Origin: Candidatus Peribacteria bacterium
Lineage (GTDB): Bacteria; Patescibacteriota; Gracilibacteria; UBA1369; 2-02-FULL-48-14
Reading direction: 5' to 3'
DNA length: 64,000 bases
NCBI GenBank assembly: GCA_943357175.1
Contig: CALRGE010000002.1
Location: 1 to 64,000 of the forward strand
Shown: positions 52,301 to 62,580 of the stretch, piece by piece
Position numbering within the stretch: position 1 is the first letter of the stretch
Layout: each line of letters begins with the position of its first letter
Position numbers and translations under genes: made by a program
The notes under the pieces: model-generated
Seen by the model: only the letters and a program-made list of their open reading frames with translations
Database searches by the model: none
What the model was told of the DNA's origin: nothing

Positions 52301-52980
52301 GTTTATATGTTGTTTCAACTCCAATCGGAAATCTTGAAGATATTACAGTGCGCGCTGTGCGGGTGCTAAAAGAAGTCGATCTAATTCTTTGTGAAGATAC
52401 TCGCACATCCCGCGTACTTTTGAATCACTACGAAATCAAAACTTCAACGACAAGCTTTCACTCATACTCCACCGACGCGAAAGCTGACGCCCTAATTCGC
52501 GAACTTCTTGCTGGCAAAAACTTCGCTATGATTTCCGACGCCGGCACGCCGGGAATTTCAGACCCCGCTTTCGTATTGATTAACGCAGCGGTTAAAGCCG
52601 GAATAACTGTGATTCCACTTCCAGGTGCAAGCGCAGTTCTGGCAGCCCTCGCAGGTTCAGGATTGCCAATGGATAAATTCTTATACCTAGGCTTCGTTCC
52701 CGCCAAAAAAGGCCGTGTAACTCTCTTCGAATCTCTCCGCGATGAAGATCGAACGGTAGTTCTATACGAATCTCCACATCGCATCATGAAAACACTCTCT
52801 CAGATGCTCGACGCCCTCGGCCCAGATCGCATAATCGTCATTGCCCGTGAACTCACAAAAATGCACGAAACTTTCCACCGTGGCACAGTTTCCCAAATCT
52901 CCACAGATTTCAGCAAAACTCCTCCAAAAGGCGAGATGGTTGTTCTAGTGGCACCTAAGAATTTTGATGGATTTAAGTAA
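52288..52980 (+). CDS. rsmI: 16S rRNA (cytidine-2'-O)-methyltransferase RsmI
   Basis: 230 aa. LYVVSTPIGNLEDITVRAVR, ILCEDTRTSRVLLNHY, FAMISDAGTPGISDPAF, PLPGASAVLAALAGSG and YESPHRIMKTL are all RsmI tetrapyrrole-methylase-fold motifs, ending ARELTKMHETFHRG. It methylates C1402 of 16S rRNA at the 2'-O. Start ATG 52288; Met4 at 52297 is also possible. Overlaps both neighbours. Confidence 0.96.
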   Translation: METMSLYVVSTPIGNLEDITVRAVRVLKEVDLILCEDTRTSRVLLNHYEIKTSTTSFHSYSTDAKADALIRELLAGKNFAMISDAGTPGISDPAFVLINAAVKAGITVIPLPGASAVLAALAGSGLPMDKFLYLGFVPAKKGRVTLFESLRDEDRTVVLYESPHRIMKTLSQMLDALGPDRIIVIARELTKMHETFHRGTVSQISTDFSKTPPKGEMVVLVAPKNFDGFK

Positions 52981-53509
52981 TGTAAAAATTCAGACCGAAC
53001 GACTTTTACTTGTTCCAGTGACAATGGAATTTAAAGAAAGCATGTTTCGCGAATTTCAGGAACCAATCACACTTTTTATGTATCCAAAACCCGCAGAGAA
53101 AATCGAGGAAACTGAGGATTTTATCAAAGAAGCTACCCTCGAATTAATAACCGGAACGGATCTAACAATGGCAATAACAAAATCAGGCGAATTTTTAGGC
53201 TGTGCCGGTCTTCATAATCTACAAAGTGAAACTCCAGAACTAGGAATTTGGATAAAACAATCTGCACACGGTCACAAATATGGCCAGGAAGCCGTGGCTG
53301 CTCTCAAAAAATGGGCAGATGAGAATATTGAGTATAAATATCTTAGTTATCCTGTAGTAGAACAAAACATCGCCAGTCGCAAAATTGCAGAATCACTCGG
53401 TGGAAAAGTTATGAAAGAATATGACAAAGTAACATTGAGTGGCAGAACTTATCACATGGTCGAGTATTGGGTGTGTCCCGCGTGCACTACGCATCCTGTA
53501 GTAGGATAA
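52964..53509 (+). CDS. GNAT-family N-acetyltransferase (RimJ/RimL type)
   Basis: 181 aa. IQTERLLLVPVTMEFKES is the RimJ/L start; LGIWIKQSAHGHKYGQEAV is the acetyl-CoA loop, and NIASRKIAESLGGKVM the final helix-strand. Substrate is not predictable. It overlaps rsmI by 17 bp. The last ~12 residues (CPACTTHPVVG) look unlike the family and may be tail drift. Confidence 0.88.
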   Translation: MMDLSNVKIQTERLLLVPVTMEFKESMFREFQEPITLFMYPKPAEKIEETEDFIKEATLELITGTDLTMAITKSGEFLGCAGLHNLQSETPELGIWIKQSAHGHKYGQEAVAALKKWADENIEYKYLSYPVVEQNIASRKIAESLGGKVMKEYDKVTLSGRTYHMVEYWVCPACTTHPVVG

Positions 53510-53629: not shown

Positions 53630-53657
53630 TTTACAATGTTTAGTCTTTTGCTAAAAT
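53630..53657 (+). promoter_or_regulatory. Promoter of small RNA 1
   Basis: TTTACA (53630-53635), 16-bp spacer, TAAAAT (53652-53657). Transcription is expected to start about 53664, exactly at the 5' side of the hairpin. Confidence 0.7.
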
Positions 53658-53663
53658 CTAGTT

Positions 53664-53715
53664 GAAAAGGCTTTCGGCCGTGGTTTATATACCACACTTA
53701 GCGGAAAGTCTTTTT
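53664..53715 (+). ncRNA. Candidate small RNA gene 1, hairpin with U-run end
   Basis: About 52 nt. Outer 9-bp stem AAGGCTTTC (53667-53675) with GAAAGTCTT (53704-53712), including one G-U. Then a G-G mismatch, GC/GC, an asymmetric internal loop (C against ACTTA) and an inner stem GTGGT/ACCAC with loop TTATAT. T5 follows (53711-53715). The 27-nt core 53676-53702 is identical to that in RNA 2. Promoter and terminator define a free RNA rather than an UTR. Confidence 0.7.
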
Positions 53716-53717
53716 GC

Positions 53718-53745
53718 TTGTAATCAAATATTTATTTGGTAAAAT
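53718..53745 (+). promoter_or_regulatory. Promoter of small RNA 2
   Basis: TTGTAA (53718-53723), 16-bp spacer, TAAAAT (53740-53745), the same spacing and -10 as promoter 1, 88 bp downstream. Expected start about 53752. Confidence 0.7.
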
Positions 53746-53751
53746 CGGTTT

Positions 53752-53803
53752 GAAGGGACTCAAGGCCGTGGTTTATATACCACACTTAGCTGCGGGTCTT
53801 TTT
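53752..53803 (+). ncRNA. Candidate small RNA gene 2, tandem copy
   Basis: About 52 nt. Core 53764-53790 is identical to RNA 1. The outer stem has changed to AAGGGACTC (53753-53761) with GGGTCTTTT (53794-53802), still 9 pairs using G-U, which is compensatory change rather than drift. T5 at 53799-53803 runs into the complement of the stop codon of the convergent 137-aa gene (TCA at 53803-53805). Confidence 0.7.
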
Positions 53804-54216
53804 CATTTATCAGGGAAAATAGAGATCAACCATTTTTGTGAAGTTTTTTTATCTTCTTTAATTTGTACATGAAAAAGATCATTTTCTAGTGTACAGCCAG
53901 AAAATCTATGTAGGATTTCAGATCTTTTATTCGGATTTTCCTTAGACTGTGGTTCATGTTTACTGTACTCAATAAGCTTAATTGCCGCTGGAAAATATTT
54001 CAAACGTCTAACCCTATCTCGCCAATTTTCCTTTAGAAAAAGATGTTGCCAAAAAATTTCCAGAAATATTTTATCTTTTTTGAAGTATGCTGATCTTAAA
54101 TAAGGCCTTCTTTTACTTCTCCGCTTAATTTTTTTATAATACTCAGATGCCCTCGAATTTACTGATTTGAAGTCTTTACCAGGAATCTTGCCCACTTTTG
54201 TTCGGTAAATTTTCAC
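53803..54216 (-). CDS. Small basic RNase-like protein of unknown family
   Basis: 137 aa, strongly basic N-terminal half (KKIKRRSKRRPYLRSAYFKK, then FWQHLFLKENWRDRVRRLKY). The C-terminal half reads RSEILHRFSGCTLENDLFHV then QIKEDKKTSQKWLISIFPDK, a strand pattern reminiscent of barnase/RelE-like phage nucleases (L-HRF-G-T...F-V-I-E...KWLIS-F). The fold is not proven. I recall similar proteins from CPR genomes. Its stop is shared with the U-run of small RNA 2, so its transcript is antisense to the RNAs if it reads through. Confidence 0.65.
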   Translation of the reverse strand: MKIYRTKVGKIPGKDFKSVNSRASEYYKKIKRRSKRRPYLRSAYFKKDKIFLEIFWQHLFLKENWRDRVRRLKYFPAAIKLIEYSKHEPQSKENPNKRSEILHRFSGCTLENDLFHVQIKEDKKTSQKWLISIFPDK

Positions 54217-54297
54217 AGTATTTTTTGTTATATAACTTAACTCTAAACAAAAAAACTGAATTAGTCCTGAAAAATATCTGAATATTTAACCTGAAGA

Positions 54298-62509: not shown

Positions 62510-62580
62510 TAGAGTTTTTAAATTACTCTAATAATATTAGACCTTAGATCTGACAAAGTCCTGAATTATTCCTGCAATAA

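Follow-up and report, generated by a model that had tools for sequence, protein, structure and literature searches.

In known type III toxin-antitoxin (TA) systems the RNA is a tandem repeat that lies upstream of the gene of a ToxN-type toxin and is carried on the same transcript, from one promoter and with a terminator in between (PMC8167048, PMC12373285). The locus described here was found in a 64,000-nucleotide stretch of a Candidatus Peribacteria contig (hereafter the window, meaning that whole stretch). It resembles the type III systems ToxIN, CptIN, TenpIN and AbiQ in joining an endoribonuclease-like protein to a small structured RNA (type III repeat units are 34-50 nt), in the excess of RNA over protein that is to be expected, and in its patchy, multicopy occurrence. 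It differs in that its RNA is downstream, convergent, equipped with its own promoter and usually a single unit (the window has two, transcribed separately), and in that the protein has a BECR-like predicted fold, with no ToxN/AbiQ-type match in Pfam, NCBIfam or PADLOC. An earlier note on this DNA had expected a layout distinct from type III, and rightly so, as neither upstream co-transcribed tandem repeats nor a ToxN-type toxin was found. Because these two tested defining features fail, the locus is not filed as type III, though it would work like one.

Other described systems share single aspects with the locus. The more recent systems AbiF/RCd22 and AvcID have a toxic protein of a different fold, inhibited directly by a noncoding RNA (PMC12373285, PMC10511110); the likeness is that of a small RNA and a toxic protein, with inhibition presumed for our locus, whereas the AbiF RNA lies upstream of its gene, the proteins are a Cas13-related Abi_2 or a deaminase, and the RNA motifs are unrelated. 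Convergent type I systems (txpA/RatA, fst/RNAII) also have a small RNA that converges on the toxin gene from its 3′ side, a likeness of layout only: type I toxins are small hydrophobic peptides under antisense control, while here we find a 137-aa protein with a pI of 10.2 and a covarying RNA. The BECR/PBECR RNases (RelE/ParE superfamily, colicin D, MuF-C) are matched in the predicted order of helices followed by a four-stranded sheet, with a His in a helix and a Ser/Thr in strand 4, but not by any significant HMM match. RelE-type toxins pair with protein antitoxins, not with RNA (PMC11980606). Lastly, toxTA of Haemophilus influenzae is a competence-regulated type II pair with frequent partial toxin deletions (PMC6957337). 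Its apparent likeness to our locus is a horizontally acquired and frequently deleted toxin gene wired into the competence regulon; it differs in having a protein antitoxin, a bicistronic organization and control by CRP/Sxy.

The two RNA genes and their family

Two RNA genes were located on the forward strand with starts 88 bp apart (Table 1). The arrangement that the earlier note had read for each of them, namely a -35 element, a 16-bp spacer, TAAAAT, a hairpin and a terminal T5, was confirmed with its coordinates by the sequence and a promoter scan, as was the identity of the 27-nt core, GGCCGTGGTTTATATACCACACTTAGC, which has the same letters in both RNAs. The outer stems differ between the two RNAs and pair in both, as had been claimed; the difference, however, affects about half of the positions and not most of them. 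The folding energies were -20.7 kcal/mol (z -4.8) for RNA 1 and -17.6 kcal/mol (z -2.6) for RNA 2. RNA 2 had been said to end on the stop codon of a convergent ORF, and its last T indeed overlaps that stop codon (53803-53805), the coding region being otherwise free of overlap with the RNA.

Table 1. Features of the RNA-protein locus in the window
Feature	Position	Strand	Remarks
sigma70-type promoter of RNA 1	53630..53657	+	TTTACA-16-TAAAAT; -35 at 53630-53635, TAAAAT at 53652-53657; extended -10
RNA 1, ~52-nt structured RNA	53664..53715	+	start G53664; intrinsic-terminator T5 at end, 53711-53715; CM match 83 bits
27-nt conserved core of RNA 1	53676..53702	+	inner hairpin, asymmetric 3′ bulge, GC clamp
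Promoter of RNA 2	53718..53745	+	TTGTAA-16-TAAAAT; -35 from 53718, TAAAAT to 53745
RNA 2, ~52-nt paralogue of RNA 1, abuts the 137-aa protein gene	53752..53803	+	start G53752; T5 at 53799-53803; CM match 66.9 bits
27-nt conserved core of RNA 2	53764..53790	+	same as that of RNA 1
137-aa basic protein (pI 10.2), new family	53803..54216	-	putative active-site residues H58 and S132; BECR-like RNase fold by prediction
Operator of the protein gene	54255..54295	-	direct repeats TTCAGG..TTCAGA..TTCAGG..TTCAG, ~11-bp period

By itself the locus in the window would be a modest signal; promoter-like sites numbered 27 in 8 kb, against 20.6 expected. It goes far beyond chance because 18 other CPR contigs have the core, the promoters are conserved and the covariation is strong. 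Exact matches to a 20-nt core, GGCCGTGGTTTATATACCAC, were found in 18 further contigs when 84,980 species genomes were searched, and all of them belong to Patescibacteria (Peregrinibacteria, Peribacteria, Buchananbacteria, Portnoybacteria, Komeilibacteria, Kerfeldbacteria, Magasanikbacteria, Jacksonbacteria and Saccharibacteria). On most of these contigs the RNA faced a convergent homologue of the 137-aa protein, 47-80% identical, the exceptions being L006, L012 and L017, plus a contig-end case, L019. Neither the RNA core nor the protein was found in viral contigs, phages or plasmids. In Rfam the RNA was unmatched at both gathering and permissive thresholds, which returned only a tRNA and chance matches. 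The ~52-nt RNAs form an undescribed structured RNA family with strong covariation, so far seen only in Patescibacteria/CPR.

The covariation across homologues that the earlier note had proposed to look for was found in two alignments. Among 52 sequences aligned to the model, 12 of 20 pairs had changed on both sides, with 85 double-changed cells compared to 20 ± 5 in shuffles and at most 36 in slid controls, and standard pairs made up 95.6% of the pair cells. An independent MAFFT alignment (n = 40 sequences) gave double changes at 11 of 16 predicted pairs, the inner stem occurring as GUGG/CCAC, GUAG/CUAC, GGAG/CUCC, GAGG/CCUC and GAAG/CUUC. Upstream of 61 RNA sites the best -35/-10 match had a mean of 9.3 out of 12 (6.9 ± 1.0 in shuffles), and 46 of the 61 reached at least 9; the spacer was 16-18 bp, and the RNA mostly started 5-7 nt after the -10, with unconserved sequence in between. 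A conserved promoter at fixed spacing is, as far as sequence can tell, the signature of a small transcript and not of a terminator. The covariation, the conserved promoter, the invariant core and the orphan RNAs described below all bear out the earlier view that this is a selected RNA structure and not a pair of duplicate terminators.

Like-oriented RNA copies, in tandem or flanking, were seen in G277:C5, G333:C12, L021 and L070 (G138:C1) as well as in the window, and genome G138 carries up to four copies in a row with no intact protein alongside. At L038, L045 and L047, divergent protein subgroups are accompanied by differently built RNAs with a longer inner hairpin; promoter, terminator and convergent layout are all kept there, and the L038 protein has an extra domain.

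The convergent protein and its pairing with the RNA

The highly basic character that the earlier note had given to the 137-aa protein agrees with its computed pI. No match to the protein was found in Pfam, NCBIfam or PADLOC, no credible one in PHROGs and none among PDB sequences; no HMM match to a named BECR/PBECR family and no sequence link to any known toxin were obtained. AlphaFold2, run on the family alignment, predicted with a pLDDT of 95 an N-terminal half made of helices and, after it, four strands (helix 53-61, further helices, and strands 90-93, 100-108, 114-122 and 128-135). His58, in helix 53-61, is invariant in 40 of 40 homologues, and position 132, in the fourth C-terminal strand, is Ser in 39 and Thr in one. 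PBECR RNases have an N-terminal helix and four or five strands, with the His in the helix and the Ser/Thr in strand 4, and the layout of H58 and S/T132 fits this configuration (PMC5512222). In a Foldseek comparison with viral models the top-ranked matches, named here as whole proteins, were phage polyvalent proteins (best E 5e-4, prob 1.0), with MuF-C and 'Nuclease' proteins at lower ranks of the same library. In the PDB, Foldseek found nothing at E<0.001, and the weak matches were mixed, among them HigB2 and a CDI toxin complex alongside folds that are unrelated. The barnase/RelE-like C-terminal pattern noticed earlier is supported by this structure prediction, in which the protein is BECR-like; its membership of BECR is probable.

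The protein and the RNA were each searched for separately, in an identical choice of genomes (380 phylum-wide and 89 from the window's order). In the 89 genomes of the order, all 35 full-length proteins had a convergent RNA at their 3′ end, on the opposite strand and with a median gap of 2 nt, where about 0.001 such pairings would be expected by chance. At the level of the phylum, every full-length protein was accompanied, where expected, by the RNA or by a hairpin with a promoter, the latter at proteins where the first RNA model had missed (L038, L045, L046, L047, L084, L085). The co-occurrence search suggested in the earlier note therefore found no full-length protein without an RNA. Two N-terminal protein fragments without RNA (G401:C68, C20) stop at contig ends.

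The converse does not hold. RNAs without a protein match made up 21 of 66 in the window's order, mostly with promoters. Several RNAs face the remains of a protein gene: a gene broken by four stops in G391, N-terminal stubs in G449, G393 and G301:C21, and C-terminal stubs in G450, G399:C48 and G407:C104. Such remnants comprise residues 1-35, 1-49 or 86-134 only, and the RNAs beside them are strong. True internal stops interrupt the protein gene at L043 and L044, and at L077 the ORF has collapsed to MKAYKTKAVFPE followed by a stop. Internal stops were also considered for L039, L042 and L052 and rejected, as these have a normal terminal stop; of the loci so considered only L043 and L044 are truly interrupted. 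The protein has been lost and the RNA kept, never the reverse, and this is the trace expected of a harmful protein and its inhibitor. RNA and protein distances were correlated (Mantel r 0.66, p 2e-4), a correlation that linkage alone could give.

The module is patchy and multicopy, being found in 25 of the 380 phylum genomes with up to 5 copies; three further copies of the protein, with an RNA at each, are present in the window's genome. At the orthologous locus L013 the cassette likewise lies beside rsmI/tsaB, and the flanking proteins are 71-78% identical. As candidates for the adjacent protein antitoxin that a type II system would conserve, the window's flanking proteins were compared with those beside other copies; they recur only at L013 and, in the case of a GNAT protein, in L030. 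This GNAT acetyltransferase adjoins the cassette both in the window (52964-53509) and in L030 (1993-2490), which is from a distant CPR genome, the two being 51% identical; it is missing at L013.

Operator of the protein gene and a candidate regulon

It is the protein gene, and not the RNA, that has the direct repeats of 11-bp period upstream. Among lags 3-34, compared over 43 loci, the signal peaked at 11, and in 12 independent loci a z of 3.2 was reached at lag 11 and again at lag 22. In the window's genome the box TTCAGGnnnnATTCAGGAC has about 20 sites at no more than one mismatch and precedes 4 of 4 protein copies, the ORF lying 45-52 bp downstream of it; the p value for all four copies being under the box is about 5e-12 (a rough estimate). 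Its other targets in this genome include dprA, ssb, recA (identified from its sequence), a ComF-type phosphoribosyltransferase, RhuM, a Bro-N protein, two PemK/MazF-like toxins, and proteins with NYN and PIN domains. One copy of the box, at 62558-62576 on the reverse strand of the window, is 48 bp upstream of the gene of a 162-aa NYN-domain (LabA-like nuclease) protein.

In related genera the sequence of the box differs, yet it is common to dprA and the protein gene within a lineage. A box of the dprA type was found at the protein gene in the one copy of f1/g3 (1/1) and, clearly above shuffles, in 3 of 4 copies of f3/g5; in f3/g9 one of 4 copies was above all shuffles, that lineage being mostly not above them. 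The dprA operator was absent from the protein gene in G310 and was not seen there in the other CPR families tested outside the order. Since the protein gene has its operator in common with dprA in this order, and also with comF, ssb and recA in the window's genome, the protein is probably made during DNA uptake or recombination. The protein of this order appears, from these sequence patterns, to belong to a DNA-uptake/recombination regulon, with the RNA under a plain constitutive promoter.

PhoB was considered as the reader of the 11-bp repeats and rejected, as no PhoU was found in six carriers and the regulon proved to be that of dprA/comF/ssb/recA. In family f2 (L034, L052, L096, L097, L099, L113) the repeats are followed by an inverted repeat, ATGGCT..AGCCAT, and a second regulator is possible there. 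An orphan RNA at G448:C57:13492-13562 is about 330 bp from dprA. Another, L074 (G217:C33), faces an ORF of which the C-terminus, read by eye, resembles a Bro-N/DinD-like regulon protein.

Proposed mechanism, alternatives and significance

On balance, and with considerable reserve, we favour a two-component module in which a BECR-type RNase toxin is checked by a constitutive small RNA in convergent layout. The 137-aa protein would be a small basic BECR-fold endoribonuclease with His58 and Ser132 as putative catalytic residues, expressed from a regulated promoter, probably at times of DNA uptake or recombination. The ~52-nt RNA would be made constitutively from its own strong sigma70-type promoter, and its stem with the conserved asymmetric core would bind the protein and block its activity. 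If protein synthesis outran the RNA, or if RNA synthesis stopped and the RNA decayed, free protein would cleave RNA and growth would be slowed or arrested. The computational results establish the RNA family with its structure, promoter and terminator, its obligate convergent pairing with the protein, the one-sided loss, the predicted fold with its active-site pattern, and the common operator. We infer the RNase activity and toxicity of the protein, its direct inhibition by the RNA (hence the word 'antitoxin' for the latter), and its induction in competence with the timing of expression this would entail. In the open-access literature no description of the module in Patescibacteria was found.

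The RNA may instead be a positive partner of the nuclease-like protein (cofactor, guide or substrate anchor), forming a ribonucleoprotein that acts on incoming DNA or RNA or in RNA processing. Strict pairing, high conservation of the RNA and co-regulation with DNA-uptake genes would fit such a partner equally well, and the core seems to be conserved beyond what antitoxin RNAs usually show. A cofactor RNA should vanish with its protein, yet nearly a third of the RNAs in the order persist alone, and an inhibitor accords better with separate promoters, constitutive for the RNA and regulated for the protein; we therefore consider a positive partner improbable, while taking it seriously. Regulation of the type I kind, with the RNA as an antisense regulator pairing with the 3′ UTR of the convergent protein mRNA, is unlikely. 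Gram-positive type I pairs typically converge with their 3′ ends abutting (PMC8167048), and a read-through mRNA would carry the exact complement of the RNA, but antisense pairing needs neither a conserved core nor compensatory changes within the RNA; moreover, the coding region is not overlapped, and the protein is soluble, basic and nuclease-like, not a small hydrophobic peptide.

Multiple copies, patchy occurrence, tandem or flanking hairpins (G277:C5, G333:C12, L021, G138:C1) and orphan copies would also be seen if the locus were a selfish or mobile element, with the protein a transposase or homing nuclease that reads the hairpin as a DNA end, and with the orphan RNAs as solo ends. We regard this as very unlikely, given that no HUH, DDE or GIY-YIG pattern was recognised in the protein, that a DNA end needs no conserved sigma70 promoter and terminator around its hairpin, and that the cassette keeps its position beside rsmI/tsaB in L013 with no second end seen. 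Plain (bidirectional) terminators of convergent genes would account for the intrinsic-terminator-like stem and T-run at the end of the RNA and for its location at gene 3′ ends, but not for its own promoter at a fixed distance, the 27-nt invariant core with its asymmetric loop, the exclusive link to one protein family or the persistence of the RNA without the gene, and we give this explanation hardly any credence.

For the RNase toxin checked by a convergent RNA, a broader claim can be made more tentatively: that a BECR-fold RNase neutralised by RNA defines a class of convergent-promoter TA systems, known to date from CPR bacteria alone, its toxin a member of a DNA-uptake/recombination regulon, linking natural transformation to growth arrest or to defence from incoming DNA. 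We hold this to be a real possibility, at somewhat less than an even chance. To our knowledge, no RelE/colicin-D-type nuclease is under the control of a dedicated RNA. The lineage of the window has no genetics; the module offers a sequence signature by which it can be found and a ready test in E. coli. If true, the finding would add a new RNA family, a new protein family and a distinct architecture among RNA-antitoxin systems. It would also point to a candidate competence/recombination regulon, recognisable by the operator of 11-bp direct repeats in front of dprA, comF, ssb, recA and genes of conflict systems. Minimal as their genomes are, CPR bacteria have kept and spread the module.
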